From Verrucomicrobiota bacterium (GTDB taxonomy: Bacteria > Verrucomicrobiota > Verrucomicrobiia > Chthoniobacterales > Chthoniobacteraceae): a stretch of DNA of 64,000 nt. Shown one piece after another: positions 3,189-64,000 of the stretch (its first letter is position 1; each line of letters starts with the position of its first letter). A model generated the notes under the pieces. That model ran no database searches and was not told the origin of the DNA. It saw only the letters and a program-made list of their open reading frames with translations. The position numbers and the translations under genes are program-made. Location: contig VFJQ01000035.1 of assembly GCA_009885995.1 (NCBI GenBank), positions 1-64,000 on the forward strand. Direction: 5' to 3'.

Positions 3189-3934
3189 TGCCTGATCTCA
3201 CGCCGACGCAGTGGGCACTCGCCATCGTCGCTGCTGCCGGCATCGGCGTGGCAAAGAGCGGCTTTTCGGGTGTGAGCATGCTGCACGTCCTCATCTTCGC
3301 GTTCCTCTTCGGCGCGCGGGACTCGACCGGGGTCGTGCTGCCTTTGCTCATCGTCGGCGACATCTGCGCTCTGCTCGCGTTTCATCAGCACGCGCGCTGG
3401 GACTACATCCGCCGCATGCTGCCGCCTGCGTGCCTCGGCGTCATCGGTGGCTGGCTGCTCATGCACCGGCTCGATGAAGCGGTCTTCAAACCCCTGATCG
3501 GTTCCGTCATCCTCGGTCTCACGGCGTTGCAGATCGCGCGGATGCGCTGGCCCCAGCGGTTCACCGACATGCCGCACGCGACGTGGTTCGCGTGGACGCT
3601 CGGCCTGCTCGCCGGCGTCACGACCATGCTCGCCAACGCCGCCGGGCCCATCATGGCGCTCTACCTCCTCGCCGTCGCACTTCCGAAGTATGAGTTCGTC
3701 GGCACCAGCGCGTGGTATTTCTTCATCGTCAATTCCTTCAAGGTCCCGTTCAGCGCCACCCTCGGCCTCATTCACCGCGACACTCTTCTCCTCAACGCCG
3801 CGCTTATCCCCGCTGTTGCGCTCGGTCTTCTCGGCGGCAGATGGCTGGTCAAGCGCGTCCCACAACGCCTGTTCGACGGACTTCTGCTCGTCTTCGCCGC
3901 GCTCGCTTCGTTGCGGCTCATCGGCGTGTTTTAG
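3188..3934 (+). CDS. TSUP-family (TauE/SafE-like) membrane transporter
   Basis: A 248-residue integral membrane protein with about eight hydrophobic segments. It opens with the family signature GIGVAKSGFSGVSMLHV and has the second TSUP half-repeat around GVTTMLANAAGPIMALYLL. TSUP proteins export sulfite, organosulfonates or related anions; the substrate here is unknown. The ATG overlaps the holA stop by one base, so the two are probably translated together although they are functionally unrelated. Confidence 0.88.
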   Translation: MPDLTPTQWALAIVAAAGIGVAKSGFSGVSMLHVLIFAFLFGARDSTGVVLPLLIVGDICALLAFHQHARWDYIRRMLPPACLGVIGGWLLMHRLDEAVFKPLIGSVILGLTALQIARMRWPQRFTDMPHATWFAWTLGLLAGVTTMLANAAGPIMALYLLAVALPKYEFVGTSAWYFFIVNSFKVPFSATLGLIHRDTLLLNAALIPAVALGLLGGRWLVKRVPQRLFDGLLLVFAALASLRLIGVF

Positions 3935-6551: not shown

Positions 6552-7138
6552 GCACCGCCTGCGCATCGGACCCGATCGCGCAATTCCAGCAATGGCTGCG
6601 CGATGGCGCGGAGTGCGGGTTGAAGGAACCGACCGCGATGGCGCTCGCGACCGCCGACGCCGCGGGCCGGCCCGATGTGCGGATGCTGCTGCTCAAAGGC
6701 GTGGATGAGCGCGGCTTCGTTTTCTTCACGAATCTCGAAAGCTCGAAAGCCGCCGACCTCCGCGCGAACCCGCACGCTGCGCTTTGTTTCTACTGGATGC
6801 CGCTCGGCCGGCAGGTCCGCGTGCGCGGGGCCGTCGAGCCGGTGAGCGATGCGGAAGCCGATGCCTATTTCGCGACCCGCGCGCGGTTGAGCCAGCTCGG
6901 GGCGTGGGCCTCGCGGCAGTCGCGCCCGATGAATGGCTATTACGAACTCGAAACCGAAGTGGCGAAGGTCGCGCTGCGTTTCCCGTTCGGCGACATCCCG
7001 CGCCCGCCGCACTGGAGTGGCTATCGCCTCGTGCCGGACGAGATCGAGTTTTGGACCGAGAAGCCCTTCCGCCGCCACGAGCGCGTCCTCCACACGCGCA
7101 CCGCCGGAGGGTGGCAGCCGCAGTGGTTGTTTCCGTGA
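6548..7138 (+). CDS. pdxH: Pyridoxamine 5'-phosphate oxidase
   Basis: A 196-residue FMN flavoprotein that oxidises pyridoxine- or pyridoxamine-5'-phosphate to pyridoxal phosphate, the last step of B6 coenzyme supply. Family landmarks are present in order: RPDVRMLLLKGVDERGFVFF, the FMN-binding stretch, ADAYFATRARLSQLGAWAS, and the C-terminal block HWSGYRLVPDEIEFW. The start at 6548 gives the normal length; earlier in-frame starts would add an unrelated Arg-rich tail. It is coupled by ATGA to the preceding unknown gene. Confidence 0.93.
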   Translation: MSTACASDPIAQFQQWLRDGAECGLKEPTAMALATADAAGRPDVRMLLLKGVDERGFVFFTNLESSKAADLRANPHAALCFYWMPLGRQVRVRGAVEPVSDAEADAYFATRARLSQLGAWASRQSRPMNGYYELETEVAKVALRFPFGDIPRPPHWSGYRLVPDEIEFWTEKPFRRHERVLHTRTAGGWQPQWLFP

Positions 7139-57297: not shown

Positions 57298-57993
57298 ATG
57301 CGCCTCCAACGCTACTTCCCCAGCCGTATCGCCGAGCAGGTGCTCTGGCTGCTGAGCTTCGCCGACAATTTGCCCAAGTATCGGCAAGAGCTCGGGCTCT
57401 CTGACGACGCGCTCGCCAGCCTCGTGGCCGATGCGCGCTTCGCCGCCTACACGCTCGGCTCGTGGCTGAGCGCGGTGCGCCATTTCTCCGATGCCGCCAC
57501 GGCCGCCGTCGCGCAGACGCTCCACGGCTCCGGTGCGAACGGCTTGCCGGTCTTCACCGCGCCGCCGCTGCCCGACGGGGTGCCCGTCGTCGCCGATGGC
57601 GCGCTGGAGCGGATCTTCCGTGCCGTGCGCGCCGCCAAGTTCCAGGAACACTACACCGACACGATCGGGACCGACCTCGGCCTCATCCCCAAGAGCGAAA
57701 ACACGAACCGCACGACGCCGCGCTTCAAGCTCAAGGCCGTGCGCATCGCCAGCGGCCCCGCGGTGGAGATCGGCTTTTCCAAATACAGCCACGCCGCCGT
57801 CTGGATCGAGAGCCGCCGCGCCGGCGGCGAGCCCGAGGGACTGGGCATCGCCGTGAGCACCCCGTGGACGGACCAACGCCCGCTCCTCGTCCCCGGCCAG
57901 CCCGAGACGCGCGAATACCGGCTGCGCTATTGGGAAGACAGCGCCCCGACCGGCGAGTGGACGCCGTGGCGGATGATCACGGTGCCGGCGTAG
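57298..57993 (+). CDS. Hypothetical protein, Verrucomicrobiota-type family
   Basis: A 231-residue protein (MRLQRYFPSRIAEQVLWLLS, FADNLPKYRQELGLSDDALA) with a helical N-terminal half and a beta-type C-terminal half ending EYRLRYWEDSAPTGEWTPWR. I recall similar layouts from Verrucomicrobiota and Planctomycetes, without known function. A C-terminal relic of a related gene lies at 15985-16143. Its TAG stop is the first three bases of a MITE-like element, so the native end may have been different. Confidence 0.65.
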   Translation: MRLQRYFPSRIAEQVLWLLSFADNLPKYRQELGLSDDALASLVADARFAAYTLGSWLSAVRHFSDAATAAVAQTLHGSGANGLPVFTAPPLPDGVPVVADGALERIFRAVRAAKFQEHYTDTIGTDLGLIPKSENTNRTTPRFKLKAVRIASGPAVEIGFSKYSHAAVWIESRRAGGEPEGLGIAVSTPWTDQRPLLVPGQPETREYRLRYWEDSAPTGEWTPWRMITVPA

Positions 57994-58137
57994 GGCGTGT
58001 TTGTAAATTCGTCCGCAGGACGGTAGGGCCCACTTTCCCCAGCGGGCCGGAGTGAGCGCAAGGCCCGCGAATCGACTCCACACCGACGGCTGAGGACAGC
58101 CATCCCTACCTTTCGCTGAATTTACAAACACGCCCTA
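57991..58137. mobile_element. MITE-like element with perfect 20-bp inverted repeats
   Basis: The ends TAGGGCGTGTTTGTAAATTC (57991-58010) and its exact complement at 58118-58137 bound 147 bp without a gene. If the terminal TA is the duplicated target, this is the pattern of elements moved by IS630/Tc1-type transposases. Inside, GGTAGGG and CCCTACCTTTCGC form a second inverted pair like that at 53.7 kb. Confidence 0.8.
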
Positions 58138-58424
58138 GGAGACTGTTGAAATACTCTCCACCGCGGTCATTCCGAGCGGAGCGCCGCAGCGGGCGAAGGT
58201 GGCGCGGCGCGCAGTCGAGGAACCCCGTGGAATGACGAGCGGCTCCCACAACGAGCAGGCATCAGCTTTTGCGGCCACATCGTCCGGACCCTCCACGGGG
58301 TTTGTGCCGCCCGCCTCCGCCCACGGCACTGTGCCTTCGGCGCTCTCGACTGCGTTCCGCCCGCCTTTCCGCCTTCACTTCGCTCGGAATGACTCCGTTG
58401 TGAGGTTTTTCAACAGGCTGCTAG
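58135..58424. mobile_element. Second MITE-like element, abutting the first
   Basis: CTAGGAGACTGTTGAAA (from 58135) and TTTCAACAGGCTGCTAG (to 58424) are inverted terminal repeats with two mismatches. Just inside, GTCATTCCGAGCGGAG and GCTCGGAATGAC are also inverted. The two elements share the TA at their joint. From 58425 to 58566 no gene is seen; the leader promoter may be there. Confidence 0.7.
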
Positions 58425-58566
58425 GGCAGGGAAGCCGCGCCGCGGGCTCTTCAGCGCAGCGTTTCCTCCATCCAAACGCCCGATCGCGCCGGCAGAAAAA
58501 CGGATGTGCTCCCGCCCCGCCCGCCTAGTCTCCGCGGCCTTTTGATCCTCACTGAAATCGAGGCCC

Positions 58567-58743
58567 ATGAAAACCCTCCGCCTCCTCGCCCTGCTCCTGT
58601 GCAGCCTCGCCCCGCTCCTCCACGCGCAGAGCGGGCTGACGCGGCTGGGGGAGTTTAAGCCCGATGAGACGGCCGACGGGAACGACTCCGGCACTTTTTC
58701 ACATCGCTCCCGCACCGCTACCGTGCTCCCTTCCCACCCATGA
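58567..58743 (+). CDS. Leader copy A: signal-peptide ORF coupled to an antitoxin
   Basis: A 58-residue frame starting MKTLRLLALLLCSLAPLLHA then QSGLTRLGEF, the same leader as at 59363, 60103, 60930 and 61601. It is a signal peptide plus the first strand of the exported protein encoded by copy E. After the leader it runs through unrelated residues and stops at TGA 58741-58743, overlapping the antitoxin ATG as ATGA. It is either a decayed gene start or a translated coupling leader. Confidence 0.6.
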   Translation: MKTLRLLALLLCSLAPLLHAQSGLTRLGEFKPDETADGNDSGTFSHRSRTATVLPSHP

Positions 58744-58946
58744 GCACCGTCACCGCCATCTACGAAAACGGCGTCTTCCGCCCGCTGGAGAAGGTCGATC
58801 TGCCGGAGCACGCGCGCGTCGAAATCACCGTGGACGATCAGCCACCGTCAAACTCTGGGTCCTCCGATCCCGTGCGCGCCGTGCTGGCCTGGCGCTACGA
58901 CGGTGAGCCACACGATGCCGCGCGCGTCGATCCGGCCCGCAAATGA
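58740..58946 (+). CDS. DUF104-type antitoxin
   Basis: A 68-residue protein. MSTVTAIYENGVFRPLEKVD followed by LPEHARVEITV is the AF2212/DUF104 antitoxin signature. It probably neutralises the PIN toxin that follows. The start overlaps the leader stop and the end overlaps the toxin start as ATGA (58943-58946). The 50 bp upstream resembles the region upstream of the third unit's antitoxin. Confidence 0.85.
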   Translation: MSTVTAIYENGVFRPLEKVDLPEHARVEITVDDQPPSNSGSSDPVRAVLAWRYDGEPHDAARVDPARK

Positions 58947-59342
58947 GCCGGGTTTTTCTCGACTCGTCCGGCCTCATCGCGCTCTGGAACCGGCGCGACC
59001 AGTGGCACGAAACCGCCGTCCGCGCTTATGCACGCCATCGATCCCGCCGCGCGCTTTCTCACGCACACCTACGTGATCGCCGAATGCGCCAACGCTTTCG
59101 CCCGCAGCGAGCTTCGTCAACGGCTGGTGATTTTGGGCGACGACCTCGCCGCGCAAGACGCGCTCATCTTTCCCAGCGATGCTGATTGGTCCGAAGCGTG
59201 GGAAGCGTTTCACGGCGGCCACCCCGGCGCGCCGAGTCTTACTGATGAACTCTCCTTCGCCGTCATGCGCCGGCTTGGCTTGCGGCGGGCCTTCACGAAT
59301 GACGGGCACTTCGCGGATGCGGGGTTCGAGCCGATGTTTTAG
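58943..59342 (+). pseudogene. PIN-domain toxin, frameshifted
   Basis: The start SRVFLDSSGLIALWNRRDQW has the first Asp and the correct PIN strand. Near 59025 the frame changes by one base; the rest continues in another frame as HAIDPAARFLTHTYVIAECA (Glu), then SLTDELSFAVMRRLGL with the later acidic residues and the end AFTNDGHFADAGFEPMF. As written the toxin is dead while its antitoxin is intact. A sequencing error is possible. Confidence 0.8.
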
Positions 59343-59362
59343 AAGACCATACCCACCAGACC

Positions 59363-59446
59363 ATGAAAACCCACCGCCTCCTCGCCCTGCTCCTGTGCGG
59401 CCTCGCTGGATTCTCGGGACTTGTCACAGGCGCGGTCGCGACGTAG
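59363..59446 (+). CDS. Leader copy B: short signal-peptide ORF
   Basis: A 27-residue frame starting MKTHRLLALLLCGLAGFSGL; the first 18 residues match the leader repeat, then it diverges and stops at TAG 59444-59446. The antitoxin ATG is 25 bp further. It starts 20 bp after the previous toxin stop. Whether it is translated is unknown. Confidence 0.5.
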   Translation: MKTHRLLALLLCGLAGFSGLVTGAVAT

Positions 59447-59471
59447 CTCACTCCACCGCATTTGCATCATC

Positions 59472-59672
59472 ATGAGCCAGACCACGACCGCCGTTCTCGA
59501 TCAGATCAAAGCCCTCCCGGAACACGAGCAGCGCGAGCTTTTCGCCGCCCTTGCGCCCCTCGCCGAGGCCGTCCGTATCCCGGAGCGGAGATCGTTGAGA
59601 GGCTTGCTCGCTGGCAGTGGGGCCGGCGCCGCGCTGCTCAGCGAGCGCGAACGGGAGCGCCGTCGTGGATGA
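59472..59672 (+). CDS. VapB-like antitoxin
   Basis: A 66-residue protein (MSQTTTAVLDQIKALPEHEQ, RELFAALAPLAEAV), typical of short helical antitoxins upstream of PIN genes. ATG 59472 is chosen over a GTG at 59421 whose extra residues look random. The C-terminus is Arg/Glu-rich. Its stop overlaps the next gene, whose GTG lies at 59665. Confidence 0.75.
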   Translation: MSQTTTAVLDQIKALPEHEQRELFAALAPLAEAVRIPERRSLRGLLAGSGAGAALLSERERERRRG

Positions 59673-60084
59673 GCCCATCCTCCTCGACACCTCCGCCATC
59701 TTCGCCCTTGCCGAAAATGAGCCCGGTGCTGACGAAGTCGAAGCGATCCTGAGCCGGGCCGAGGCCGGGGAAGTCCGGCTCCACGCCTCCTTCGTCACCC
59801 TCACCGAACTCGACTACATCACCACGCAAGAGCGAGGCCCGGAAGCCGCCGCCACACTCCTCGCGATCGTGCGCGCCTGGCCCCTGCGCTGGCACCACTC
59901 CGACGACGCTCTCTGCGCCGAAGCCGCCACGCTCAAGGCCGCGCACCGCATTTCCTTCGCCGACGCCTTCGTCGCCGCCACCGCGCTGCTTTGCGCCGCG
60001 CGTCTCGTCCACCGCGACCCCGAGTTGGACGCCCTCGCTGCCTTTCTGCCTACGCAAATGCTCCCTCCGAAGACGACCACCTGA
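59665..60084 (+). CDS. PIN-domain (VapC-like) toxin
   Basis: A 139-residue, intact PIN protein from GTG 59665. ILLDTSAIFALAENEPGADE gives the first Asp, FVTLTELDYITTQERG the Glu, and ISFADAFVAATALLCAARLV with HRDPELD the later Asp residues. It is the only clearly intact toxin in the leader array. Confidence 0.85.
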   Translation: MDEPILLDTSAIFALAENEPGADEVEAILSRAEAGEVRLHASFVTLTELDYITTQERGPEAAATLLAIVRAWPLRWHHSDDALCAEAATLKAAHRISFADAFVAATALLCAARLVHRDPELDALAAFLPTQMLPPKTTT

Positions 60085-60102
60085 ACCTCTCACCAGCCCG
60101 CT

Positions 60103-60282
60103 ATGAACTCCCTCCGCCTCCTCGCCCTGCTCCTGTGCAGCCTCGCCCCGCTCCTCCACGCGCAGAGCGGGCTCACGCGGCTGGGGGAGTTTCGGGTGAA
60201 TACGACAACGACTAGCGGGGGGCGGCACCATCACTCTTTGCATCGCTGTCATGCCGCTTTCATGCTCCCTTCACATCTATGA
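60103..60282 (+). CDS. Leader copy C: signal-peptide ORF coupled to an antitoxin
   Basis: A 59-residue frame starting MNSLRLLALLLCSLAPLLHA, then QSGLTRLGEFRVNTTTTSGG, the closest copy to the complete gene E (GEFKVNTTTSGDQ). It then leaves the gene-like sequence, reads HHHSLHRCHAAFMLP and ends TGA 60280-60282 in an ATGA overlap with the next antitoxin. Same architecture as copy A. Confidence 0.6.
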   Translation: MNSLRLLALLLCSLAPLLHAQSGLTRLGEFRVNTTTTSGGRHHHSLHRCHAAFMLPSHL

Positions 60283-60508
60283 GCAAGCTCGCCACCGAAC
60301 TCGACTCCCGCCTGCGCAAGCTCGATCCCGCGGCCCAGGCGCACATCGAAGCCCTCCTGCGCGAAGCCCTCGCCCTCGCCGAATCCAAGCCGGTCCAACT
60401 CAGCGGATCATGGCCCCCCGGATACTTCGAGCAAACCGCGGCGCGTTCGCCGGAGAACCTCTGGAGCGACCCGTGCAGAGCCCCTTGGAAACCCGTGAGC
60501 GCTGGTAA
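60279..60508 (+). pseudogene. VapB-like antitoxin, frameshifted
   Basis: MSKLATELDSRLRKLDPAAQ then HIEALLREALALAESKPVQ is a good antitoxin start. In the stretch ACCGCGGCGCG (about 60440) one G appears to be missing; only in the other frame does the expected acidic tail appear (AFAGEPLERPVQSPLETRER) with TAA at 60506-60508 overlapping the toxin start as TAATG. As written the antitoxin has a long unrelated tail. Confidence 0.65.
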
Positions 60509-60920
60509 TGGCCCGGCTACTCGATACGAATGCGTGGATTCACTACCTGAAGAATCCACACAGTCTCATTCGCACCCGACTCGAACAGCTCGCGCCCGCC
60601 GACATCGTCTCCTGCTCCATCGTCCGCGCCGAGTTGCTGCACGGCGCGCTGAAATACGGCCAGCCGGAACGCCGTGCCGCCCTCGTGGTTCAGACTCTCG
60701 CGCCCTACGCCTCCCTGCCCTTCGGTGATTCCGCTGCCGGGCATTATGCCCGCCTCCGACACGATCTCGAAACTCGCGGCTGCATCATCGGCCCACACGA
60801 TCTGCTCATCGCCGCGATCTGCCTGCCCACGGCCTGACGCTGGTCTCATCGAACACAGCCGAGTTCAGCAGAGTGGCAAACCTGCGCGTCGAAGACTGGC
60901 TCGCCCTCGCGCCCTCGTAA
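60508..60920 (+). pseudogene. PIN-domain toxin, frameshifted near the end
   Basis: MARLLDTNAWIHYLKNPHSL gives the first Asp; VRAELLHGALKYGQPE the Glu; IIGPHDLLIAAI an Asp. Near 60822 a G is missing (CTGCCCACGG, where CTGGCCCACGG would restore the frame); after that the true tail HGLTLVSSNTAEFSRVANLR and VEDWLAL lies in another frame, to TAA 60918-60920. As written it stops early and lacks the last conserved Asp/Asn region. Confidence 0.75.
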
Positions 60921-60929
60921 ACCATCGCC

Positions 60930-61022
60930 ATGAAAACCCTCCGCGTCCTCGCCCTGCTCCTGTGCGGCCTCGCCCCGCTCCTCCACGCGCAGACCGGGCT
61001 CACGCGGCTGGGGGAGTTTTGA
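60930..61022 (+). CDS. Leader copy D: signal-peptide ORF
   Basis: A 30-residue frame (MKTLRVLALLLCGLAPLLHA, then QTGLTRLGEF) stopping at TGA 61020-61022 right where the repeat ends. It begins 9 bp after the previous toxin's stop. The next gene starts 70 bp later. Confidence 0.55.
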   Translation: MKTLRVLALLLCGLAPLLHAQTGLTRLGEF

Positions 61023-61092
61023 TCGATTCGACCACCGCGAACGCAACACTCGCACCTTGCGACGCCACTCCATTTCCCCTAGCCTCCGACGC

Positions 61093-61314
61093 ATGATCCT
61101 CATCCGCTTCGCCGATTCGCAGATGGAGAAACGCGCCCTTGGCTATCTTGCTGGCCGCTTTTCTGGCAAGACTTGGACCACTGGCGAGACGCTGGTGCCC
61201 GAGGAGGCGCTGCCGCATCTCGCCGCGGAAGGCATCACCTTTAGCGTCGCAGGCCGCCTCCCCTACGAACGTGCGTATGCGCCGCTACGAGATTCTTCTC
61301 CCGCTTCGGTTTAA
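61093..61314 (+). CDS. Small protein, first gene of a TA-like pair
   Basis: A 73-residue protein (MILIRFADSQMEKRALGYLA, GRFSGKTWTTGETLVPEEAL). A mixed alpha/beta layout that I recall as uncharacterised. Size, overlap with the next gene and place in the array suggest a toxin-antitoxin-like partner. No family is assigned. Confidence 0.6.
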   Translation: MILIRFADSQMEKRALGYLAGRFSGKTWTTGETLVPEEALPHLAAEGITFSVAGRLPYERAYAPLRDSSPASV

Positions 61315-61586
61315 CGACGGCTCACCCGTTTCCGACCTTCTCGTCGGCGAGGTGCTCGTCAGCATCCGCGAGCGGTTCGGCGCAGCCTCCTTCGAGACGC
61401 AAGACCATTCGCGGAGTCTGGCAGCACGAAGGTGAAGTCTATCGCGATGACCTCGTGCGGATCTTTGCCGATGTGGCGGACTCCACCGAAAACCGCGCGT
61501 GGTTTCTTCAGCTAAAAGAGCGGCTCAAGCGCGACTTTGACCAACTCGACATCTGGATGATCACGCACCCGATCGAAGTGCTCTAA
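61277..61586 (+). pseudogene. Second gene of a TA-like pair, frameshifted
   Basis: MRRYEILLPLRFNDGSPVSD starts a family of about 100 residues that I recognise from many bacteria without function. After SFETQ an extra G (about 61405) shifts the frame; the other frame continues GVWQHEGEVYRDDLVRIFAD and VADSTENRAWFLQLKERLK to the expected end DIWMITHPIEVL and TAA 61584-61586. As written it is broken. It overlaps the upstream gene by 38 bp. Confidence 0.65.
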
Positions 61587-61600
61587 ACTCTCCCACCGCC

Positions 61601-64000
61601 ATGAACCACCTCCGCCTCCTCGCCCTGCTCCTGTGCAGCCTCGCCCCACTCCTCCACGCGCAGACCGGGCTCACGCGGCTGGGGGAGTTTAAGGTGAACA
61701 CGACTACGAGTGGCGATCAGGACTTCGCGGCGGTTTCCGGCAATAAGGATGGATTCGTTATCGTGTGGAGAAGCGCCAGCGGTTCCGGCTACGACATCAA
61801 GGCGCAACTCTACAATTCAGCCGCTTCGCCCGTCGGTTCCGAAATCAGCGTCGCAACCGGGCTGAGCAATCTGAACGCCTTCCATGCATGGCCTGCGGCT
61901 GCGATGAACGCCCGCGGAGAATTTGTCATTACGTGGAGCGATTTTTCGGCCTCTACCGGTTCATCCTACATCATTCGGGCGCGACGGTTCGACCGTTTGG
62001 GAAATCCCGTGGGCGGTGTGTTCCAGGCCGATTCCGCACCGAATACCAACCAAAATATTCCCGCGGTGGCTTTCGATGACGACGTGCAGAACCCGCAATT
62101 TGTCATCGCATGGCAGCGATACAATCAGGATGGCCCCTCTTCCATCTACTTCCAACGTTTCGCCATCAATGGCGCGAGCAACACGCCCTTGGGCAGCGAA
62201 ACTCGGGCTAATGATTCGACTTTAGGCAAGAACGAGAGCCCTTCGATCGATTGCACTCCAGGTGGCGATTTTGTGATCTGTTGGACCGAGAACTCGGGAA
62301 CGAGCGGCACTAAGGTCAAAGCCCGCCGTTTCACGAAATCTGGCGTTCCAGTCGATCCACAAGACATCACCGTGGCCTCCGAGGCTCAGACCGTCCTAAC
62401 CTATCCTGCCGTCGCCGTCGTCCCCGACGGGCGGTTCGTCGTTGTTTGGGACGGTAATCGCGGGAGCACGGGCAACGATGTGTTTGCGCAACGTTTCGCC
62501 GCGGACGGAACGGCTGCTGGTGGAGCAATTCCGGTCAATGCGGGGACATCGGGCGATCAACGCGATGCGTCGGTTGCCGTCGACCCCGCTGGAAACTTCA
62601 CCGTGGTCTGGGGGAGCGATTCGGCAGACGGAAACGGCGATGCGGTGGCTTGCCGGCAGTTCGACTCATCCGGCACGCCGCTCACGGCGTTCGATGTCGT
62701 CGTCAATTCATATACGGCGGGCAATCAACGTCCGATATATTTTAACAAGGCGGCCATGGTGGACGAGGACGGAAATCTTGTCGTCGCTTGGCAAAGCGCC
62801 GCACAGGACGGCAGCGGCACCGGCATCTACGCGGACAAGTTCTACCTCCCCAACCAAGGCCCGCCGCTGACGGAGTTTCGGGTGAATACGACGACGACGG
62901 GGGATCAAACATTGCCCTCCATCGCCACGATGCCGGATGGACGTTTCGTAGCAGTCTGGCGTGGGTTCAGTGGATCTGGAAACAATGCGATCTTCGGCCA
63001 GCGGTTCGATGCCGCGGGGCGACGATTCGGTCCGGAGTTCATCGTCAACACCTCGTTGCCAGCCAGCGAGTCTTACGGTAATCCCCAATCGCTCTCGCTC
63101 GCTCCGCGTGTTGCCTTCGATTCCAACGCGGGGTTTACGGTCGTTTGGGTTGCTGCGAGCGATGGAAGTAGTCTTGGCATTGTCGGGCGAAGCTTCCCTT
63201 GGAATCCCCAAGCCGCGGCCGGCAGCGAATTCCCGGTGACGCTCGGTTCACTAGCCACTGGCCACCAGTCTCAGCCGAGCATCGCGGTCGCACCAGATGG
63301 CCGATTTGCCGTGGCTTGGCTGCGCTATGAAGAAAGCGGGGAAATCGTTCAACGACCCTACATCCAGTTTTTCGCGGCCAACGGCACTCCGGGCACAAGC
63401 GCTGAGCTAGGCGTCAATTTCGGCTACGAGCAGGTAGTCGCCTACTCCCCTCTCGGGCGCTTCATAGTGGCTTGGCGGCAAAGCGCCCCACCGCCAGGAA
63501 GCCTGAACCTGCGTTTGCATGAATTCGATCTGCAGGGTGTATTCCTCCGTGATCTTCTGTTTGTGGACGACCCCGGCGATGGCCTGCAAGAGTCCCCCAG
63601 CCTGGCCATCCAAGGTGATGGGTCGATGATCGTAGCTTGGGAGACTGTCGGGACGGAAGGTAACGGGACAAGCGCTGTTCATGCGCAAAGGCTCGATGCA
63701 AATGCCGGTCGAATCGGCGCCAGCTTTCGCGTCAATACTTTCACTCTGGGTGATCAAATTGCGTCGTCCGTAGCGGGCGGGCCGGGTAGCGACTTCATCG
63801 TCTGCTATCGTAGTCCCGGGCTCGACGGCAGCGGGCAGACCGTCGCAGCTCAACGCTTCACGAGCGGATCGGGCACACCGCAGAAAGACGGATCCGAGAT
63901 CGTGGTGAATCAATTCAAGAATGGCGATCAAAGTTCTTCCGGCAGGCAAGGGGCCATCGTCACCGATGCTTTTGGCAATTACGTCATCGTCTGGCAGAGC
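61601..64000 (+). CDS. Large exported repeat protein, leader copy E, runs off the window
   Basis: The frame is open from ATG 61601 to the end (800 codons, no stop yet). It opens with the leader signal peptide (LRLLALLLCSLAPLLHAQ) and TGLTRLGEFKVNTTTSGDQ, then repeats of about 50-60 residues of propeller type: FVIVWRSASGSGYDIKAQ, FVVVWDGNRGSTGNDVFAQR, FTVVWGSDSADGNGDAV. At residue about 420 it has PLTEFRVNTTTTGDQTLP, an internal echo of the leader end. It is likely a secreted or surface beta-propeller protein. Function is unknown, and the C-terminus lies outside. Confidence 0.85.
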   Translation, partial: MNHLRLLALLLCSLAPLLHAQTGLTRLGEFKVNTTTSGDQDFAAVSGNKDGFVIVWRSASGSGYDIKAQLYNSAASPVGSEISVATGLSNLNAFHAWPAAAMNARGEFVITWSDFSASTGSSYIIRARRFDRLGNPVGGVFQADSAPNTNQNIPAVAFDDDVQNPQFVIAWQRYNQDGPSSIYFQRFAINGASNTPLGSETRANDSTLGKNESPSIDCTPGGDFVICWTENSGTSGTKVKARRFTKSGVPVDPQDITVASEAQTVLTYPAVAVVPDGRFVVVWDGNRGSTGNDVFAQRFAADGTAAGGAIPVNAGTSGDQRDASVAVDPAGNFTVVWGSDSADGNGDAVACRQFDSSGTPLTAFDVVVNSYTAGNQRPIYFNKAAMVDEDGNLVVAWQSAAQDGSGTGIYADKFYLPNQGPPLTEFRVNTTTTGDQTLPSIATMPDGRFVAVWRGFSGSGNNAIFGQRFDAAGRRFGPEFIVNTSLPASESYGNPQSLSLAPRVAFDSNAGFTVVWVAASDGSSLGIVGRSFPWNPQAAAGSEFPVTLGSLATGHQSQPSIAVAPDGRFAVAWLRYEESGEIVQRPYIQFFAANGTPGTSAELGVNFGYEQVVAYSPLGRFIVAWRQSAPPPGSLNLRLHEFDLQGVFLRDLLFVDDPGDGLQESPSLAIQGDGSMIVAWETVGTEGNGTSAVHAQRLDANAGRIGASFRVNTFTLGDQIASSVAGGPGSDFIVCYRSPGLDGSGQTVAAQRFTSGSGTPQKDGSEIVVNQFKNGDQSSSGRQGAIVTDAFGNYVIVWQS

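Follow-up and report, generated by a model that had tools for sequence, protein, structure and literature searches.

Toxin-antitoxin operons alternating with copies of a gene start in a Verrucomicrobiota genome: probable serial insertion with long target duplication

Introduction

Integron cassette arrays are rich in toxin-antitoxin (TA) genes and consist of small modules in a row with a recurring element between them. Modules are also stacked in ICE/CIME accretion, where they lie between repeated copies of a target and the host gene end stays intact, and in surface-gene families such as Campylobacter fetus sapA and Mycoplasma vsa/vsp conserved 5' ends serve for recombination. The movement of TA genes where no mobile element is visible is an old question. 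The closest described process concerns restriction-modification systems, for which insertion with long target duplication has been described (Nobusato et al. 2000; Furuta et al. 2010), as related in PMC3874152 and PMC3031569.

Here we describe an array of small TA-like gene pairs joined by copies of the start of an exported-protein gene. The source genome (G000) is a 5.94-Mb draft, 91% complete, and the window, the whole stretch of DNA analyzed, is the first 64 kb (64,000 nucleotides) of its contig C1. A first-pass annotation of the window knew of no described system of this kind; the restriction-modification process is a described precedent. In the literature searched, with most subscription journals outside it, neither long-target-duplication insertion of a type II TA module nor an array built in this way is reported.

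Results and Discussion

Organization of the leader array

Sequence comparison confirms the array seen in the first-pass annotation, with five leader copies, starting at positions 58567, 59363, 60103, 60930 and 61601, alternating with four different small gene pairs in the 58567-61690 region. Copies 1, 3, 4 and 5 share 93-97% identity across 90 bp, and chance is ruled out by E-values of 1e-10 to 1e-58 in the leader search of the genome and by the recurrence of the leader around another AF2212/PIN pair on contig C127. Copy 2 matches the others over its first 44 bp only, and thus the motif GLTRLGEF, previously ascribed to a leader of about 90 bp in every copy, is present in copies 1, 3, 4 and 5 and absent from copy 2. 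The intervals from the stop of the previous unit to copies 2-5 are 20, 18, 9 and 14 bp respectively, in agreement with the 9-20 bp reported earlier, and the inserts are 581-718 bp long.

All of the leader copies and genes lie on the forward strand. Copy 1 (58567..58656) is a truncated copy of the putative target, copy 2 (59363..59406) is the 44-bp copy, copy 3 (60103..60211) reaches GEFRVNTTTTSGG, copy 4 (60930..61019) ends at GEF followed by TGA, and copy 5 (61601..61690) is the start of the intact host gene. As noted before, only this fifth copy runs into a complete large exported gene; it has 1,424 codons, encodes an exported repeat protein, occupies 61601..64000 of the window and ends at contig position 65875. 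What appears from its sequence to be the original upstream flank (58500..58566), with a promoter-like CTAGTCTCCGC at 58525-58535, precedes copy 1 only within the window; a similar CTAGCCTCCGCG sits ahead of the leader on contigs C20 and C32. The layout is that of a promoter and first leader, then four repetitions of a TA unit and a leader, then the gene body. Two dispersed inverted-repeat elements (57991..58427, no strand assigned) lie directly upstream, outside the insertion units.

The TA units

Units 1-3 have a VapBC-like layout, with a predicted PIN-domain toxin gene right after a small antitoxin gene; toxicity is putative. Unit 1 contains an AF2212/DUF104 antitoxin-like gene (58740..58946; PF01954, E 2e-12) and a PIN toxin gene (58943..59342) with a frameshift near 59028, whose match to PF01850 (E 9e-4, in the second half) falls under the Pfam cut-off because of that frameshift; its relative on contig C127 is intact (51% amino acid identity). 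In unit 2, a putative antitoxin (59472..59672), whose open reading frame overlaps the toxin start, is followed by a VapC-like PIN toxin (59668..60084; PF01850, E 3e-13). Unit 3 has a putative antitoxin (60279..60509) that loses its frame near the 3' end and has a relative in locus L057, and a PIN toxin (60508..60920; PF01850, E 1e-11) with a frameshift near 60825, which matches the VapC model NF047863 with E 2e-20, below that model's cut-off. Unit 4 consists of two uncharacterized genes (61093..61314, 73 aa; and 61277..61586, with a frameshift near 61403), neither with a Pfam or NCBIfam family match. The earlier assignments of DUF104/PIN, of the PIN toxins of units 2 and 3 and of an uncharacterized fourth pair stand; the VapB assignments do not, as the putative antitoxins of units 2 and 3 match no Pfam or NCBIfam model.

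Frameshifts at ~59028 in unit 1, ~60420-60480 and ~60825 in unit 3, and ~61403 in unit 4, which the first-pass annotation had missed, leave at most unit 2 looking intact, and three of the four units look decayed. The PIN toxins are not recent duplicates of one another, whereas the leaders are 93-97% alike, and the modules were therefore acquired separately; they also appear to have their own putative promoters. The leader was not found beside relatives of unit 3 elsewhere, of which the one in L057 (Planctomycetota) is flanked by its own repeat of ~109 bp that may be a dispersed element.

Other copies of the leader and paralogues of the host gene

The leader occurs nine times in G000: five times in the window, twice on C127, and once each on C20 and C32. 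The C20 copy heads a full-length paralogue with 54% amino acid identity to the host gene product, the C32 copy is truncated, and no TA units are seen beside the leader on either contig. The two copies on C127 flank another AF2212/PIN pair, and this leader-AF2212/PIN-leader block is 73% identical at the DNA level to unit 1; the first copy lies 23 bp after a small antitoxin-like gene, and the second is joined to the tail end of another gene, one that has a relative (82% identity) at 57298-57993 of the window. Between the C1 and C20 paralogues the leader DNA is 93% identical, also at third codon positions (93%), while third positions of the bodies are 33-68% identical apart from one stretch at 86%. 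Because the leader is far more alike than the bodies, gene conversion among paralogues acts on it as well.

Among 56 family- and order-level relatives there was no convincing leader copy or exported protein, only a few short partial DNA matches, and the host protein was found in no other organism. The leader as a mobile repeat spread across relatives was rejected, full leader DNA having been found in G000 only. A wider search for the leader, which the first-pass annotation had proposed, thus yielded a recurrence with a TA pair on C127 and none in the relatives. The outcome that it had set against its own reading, a leader confined to this locus with full-length paralogues in place of the pairs in relatives, was not obtained, since the leader is also on C127 and the relatives are without the gene.

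Recurrence of the anatomy at unrelated genes

Self-comparison of the remaining PIN loci in G000 brought out long direct repeats around TA units at several of them. Over the genome, at least five loci outside the window have this anatomy, a TA-operon insert of 0.6-0.9 kb between two direct copies of a target repeat (T), each with a different T, and contig C16 provides a sixth in which the duplicated T is intergenic. On C72 the T is 187 bp long (98% identity), derives from the 5' end of a radical-SAM gene and surrounds an antitoxin-like gene and VapC; on C152, a 199-bp T (97%) from the 3' end of a PEP-hydrolase-like gene on the opposite strand surrounds a PIN pair; these two scars are taken to be the youngest. 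The 3' ends of a cytochrome c gene on C51 (203 bp, 85%) and a solute-binding gene on C17 (100 bp, 92%) are similarly repeated around PIN modules. Two loci are arrays. On C74 the T is the 5' end of a sigma-factor-like gene that was not seen there in intact form; its three copies, of 123-143 bp, have an HNH-containing pair and a PIN pair between them. C16 has five T copies of 34-45 bp, with PIN pairs and a DUF433/ParE segment between them and pheS next to the last copy, and T is longer where the neighboring antitoxins are homologous.

At most of these loci the repeat is the end of a neighboring gene. With the same scar around unrelated genes, the exported-protein leader is just one of several targets, and the earlier view of a surface-protein start as a special joint does not hold, as the joint at other TA loci of G000 is the start or end of some unrelated gene. 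The G000 inserts that were measured span 581-865 bp and are filled by TA genes, with no transposase or integrase in those examined, and the distance from toxin stop to the next T ranges from -4 to +41 bp in the cases measured. Across loci T varies from about 20 to 203 bp and lies at gene starts, gene ends or intergenic sites, and the T sequences of separate loci look unrelated by eye. The cargo comprises PIN, AbrB/MazE, AF2212, ParE, DUF433 or HNH pairs, and not restriction-modification systems.

Frequency of repeats abutting toxin stops

In an unbiased sample of ~1.1 Mb of G000, chosen regardless of TA content (L112-L151, L201-L220), direct repeats were sought with a minimum length of 30 bp, a minimum identity of 85% and a spacing of 0.3-2.5 kb. 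Once within-frame repeats, those between tandem paralogues (sulfatases, DUF1080) and dispersed intergenic ones had been set aside, two direct-repeat-flanked inserts were left, those on C51 and C17, and both hold PIN modules.

In a wider survey, a locus was counted when one copy of a direct repeat lay within -5 to +100 bp of the toxin stop and its partner 450-1500 bp upstream. Such repeats are present at 9 of 14 PIN loci in G000, which are not independent of one another, and at 9 of 76 elsewhere (5 of 48 in family- or order-level relatives, 4 of 28 across the phylum), compared with one of 29 ParE loci and none of 30 acetyltransferase controls. Other positions within the same TA loci score 0.4-2.3%, a figure inflated by the matches themselves, and the comparison of 9/76 PIN with 0/30 acetyltransferase loci gives a one-sided p of about 0.04 by hand estimate, weak if taken as the sole control. 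Some matches in relatives are short (20-28 bp; L171, L288, L307, L180) and could reflect chance or dispersed repeats; among the longer ones, several T are again gene ends, including those of short-chain dehydrogenase (SDR) and iron alcohol dehydrogenase genes. Locus L152, whose repeats resemble a dispersed repeat and which was also negative in this survey, was set aside.

Empty sites and exchange of modules in a related genus

No relative found carries the gene or leader of the window locus; an empty-site comparison comes instead from an SDR gene in the genus of genome G213. The 3' end of this gene is single in G246, G249, G251, G252 and G253, and double in G213, around an AbrB/PIN pair, and in G250, around a different pair on the opposite strand whose toxin-side gene looks PIN-like by eye and has no Pfam match. 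G252 and G250 have the same upstream neighbor, a large gene whose end aligns over 72 bp at 85%, and in G252 a single SDR end follows after ~100 bp from that neighbor, which constitutes an empty site. A second locus, 94% identical between G249 and G253, consists in both of T, an addiction-module antitoxin pair, T, an AbrB/PIN pair and T. Its AbrB/PIN pair is 89% identical to the one in G213, and in G246 T stands alone. Single versus double T with different modules between species indicates that units come and go exactly at the joint borders, and the first-pass suggestion of a recurring, recombination-prone joint thus gains support from unit-wise gain at another locus in a related genus.

Origin of the array

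We consider it likely that TA operons were inserted serially at the 5' end of the exported gene with duplication of the target, that homology between T copies builds arrays, and that old units decay. This builds on the observed anatomy, its recurrence at unrelated genes, the enrichment at PIN loci, and the empty site and module difference between species elsewhere. The insert would be a small TA operon (promoter, antitoxin and toxin) of about 0.6-0.9 kb without a transposase, and every insertion would leave it between two direct copies of the target, which run from the start codon to at most ~110 bp inside the gene. The upstream T copy would be left as a truncated stub retaining the original promoter-like flank, and the copy right after the toxin stop would head the intact gene, so that the copy after the last insert retains the body. 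Once a T-TA-T structure had formed, T would offer homology for T-TA units from other strains or loci, and unequal crossing-over or circle integration could then add or remove such units to give arrays, with older units decaying through frameshift. Under this model the leader is the duplicated target of TA insertion and not a special part of the TA system; we infer the serial order in the window, the T-mediated homologous growth, the enzymology of the initial insertion and the toxicity of the modules.

The borders are more regular than random breaks would make them. In the window every leader copy has its left border at the start codon, a regularity not expected of random staggered breaks, and outer T borders elsewhere fall at a start codon (C74, as in the window) or a stop codon (C152, C17, C51, SDR). 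Either only insertions that spare the host gene survive, or later units that joined through T by homologous recombination inherited the border. Ku-dependent end joining is not supported, a search of the 91%-complete genome having turned up no Ku gene.

Repeated decay of a paralogue family was proposed in the first-pass annotation. On this view the paralogues stood in tandem, a full-length one at each leader, and TA modules have since taken the place of their bodies. The full-length C20 and truncated C32 paralogues with the same leader would suit it, as would the fall in identity from 93% in the leader DNA to 47-62% across the 800 codons that follow, but no body remnants lie ahead of leaders 2-5, each 9-20 bp past a toxin stop, and the same scar is found at radical-SAM, PEP-hydrolase-like, cytochrome c and SDR genes; we regard it as largely refuted and improbable. 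Modules might instead have accumulated purely by homology, through recombination between leader copies that had been joined to TA genes beforehand at paralogues, with no target-duplicating insertion. That the leader-AF2212/PIN-leader block recurs on C127 and that the leader is homogenized among paralogues are both to be expected on these terms; the origin of the first leader-TA links is nevertheless left unexplained, as are the single-insert scars at unrelated genes on C72, C51 and C17, and so this account too has little likelihood.

A site-specific cassette system, integron-like or resembling CIME/ICE accretion at an att site, would make the leader a recombination site. It would account for TA-rich arrays of short modules split by a recurring element, and for one T common to different modules in related species; yet T varies between loci in length (about 20-203 bp) and position and looks unrelated in sequence by eye, no integrase lies within the inserts examined, and the modules keep putative promoters of their own, which makes such a system improbable.

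Serial target-duplicating insertion would provide a simple origin for TA arrays, and the scar suggests how chromosomal TA genes move without a transposon, as discrete inserts that leave a readable trace. With an empty site in a sister species, and with one target holding different modules from species to species, the process is directly testable by genome comparison. A broader proposal is that TA operons are autonomous minimal mobile units, for which a dedicated process inserts exactly promoter, antitoxin and toxin, ending at the toxin stop, at gene borders with long target duplication, the duplicated target then giving the homology by which TA arrays are built and shuffled across Verrucomicrobiota; this we regard as doubtful.

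Relation to known systems

Integron arrays share with the window small TA modules in a row with a recurring element between; here, however, no common attC is apparent by eye, the joints are locus-specific gene ends, and the modules seem self-promoted. ICE/CIME accretion likewise stacks modules between repeated target copies and keeps the host gene end, although the present inserts are under 1 kb, have no integrase and use a different target at each locus. With sapA and vsa/vsp the array has in common a surface-protein gene start as recombination joint, but in the present case it is TA modules that the joint keeps apart, and nothing points to antigen switching.

The closest likeness is to the long target duplication of restriction-modification systems, as portrayed in PMC3874152: a self-contained addiction-type unit, no transposase, variable direct target repeats on the order of 100 bp, and an empty site in a relative, here at the SDR locus (G252 versus G250). 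The present loci differ in that the cargo consists of type II TA operons, mostly PIN, instead of restriction-modification genes, that several modules pile up at one target, that modules can take T along to a second locus, and that borders are often at the start or stop codon of the host gene. Restriction-modification cargo, as first described, is a historical feature and not part of the mechanism, and the window array probably works like that process, which would extend a mechanism known, as far as we found, only for restriction-modification systems to the other large class of addiction modules.

Borders and contents of repeat-flanked loci

The borders of the target sequence T, which at most loci copies the 5' or 3' end of a host gene and is duplicated on both sides of a toxin-antitoxin (TA) insert, often fall within a few bases of the host gene start or stop codon, both in the window units and at loci L105, L109, L130 and L214. 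At L109, a small gene and an HNH endonuclease (1945–2597) are placed between target copies exactly as the TA modules are, and possibly constitute an uncharacterised addiction pair. The second locus, which is T-TA-T-TA-T in G249 and G253, has a single T copy in G246 (contig C38; L342, oriented 3467–3585), possibly a scar of module loss via T x T recombination. In a Planctomycetota MAG (L057), one of the closest relatives of the third TA pair of the window has a direct repeat of ~109 bp (88%) on both sides. In G003 (L278), a 153-bp direct repeat (96%) surrounds a ParE-type toxin, near the toxin stop; this repeat could represent either a duplicated target or a dispersed element.

Apparent rearrangements within the genome

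Third codon positions of window 61601–64000 and its full-length paralogue on contig C20 (L032) are much closer in the leader and at ~codons 830–1030 than in the remaining gene, a pattern of mosaic exchange between paralogues. On contig C127 (L033, about 6669–6776), a second, truncated leader is joined at a short shared CCGCTC to the tail of a member of the window 57298–57993 gene family, apparently by illegitimate recombination. Two dispersed inverted-repeat elements (window 57991–58137 and 58132–58427) lie upstream of the array; they have numerous relatives across the genome, several of them at contig ends, and therefore elements of this type probably break the assembly.
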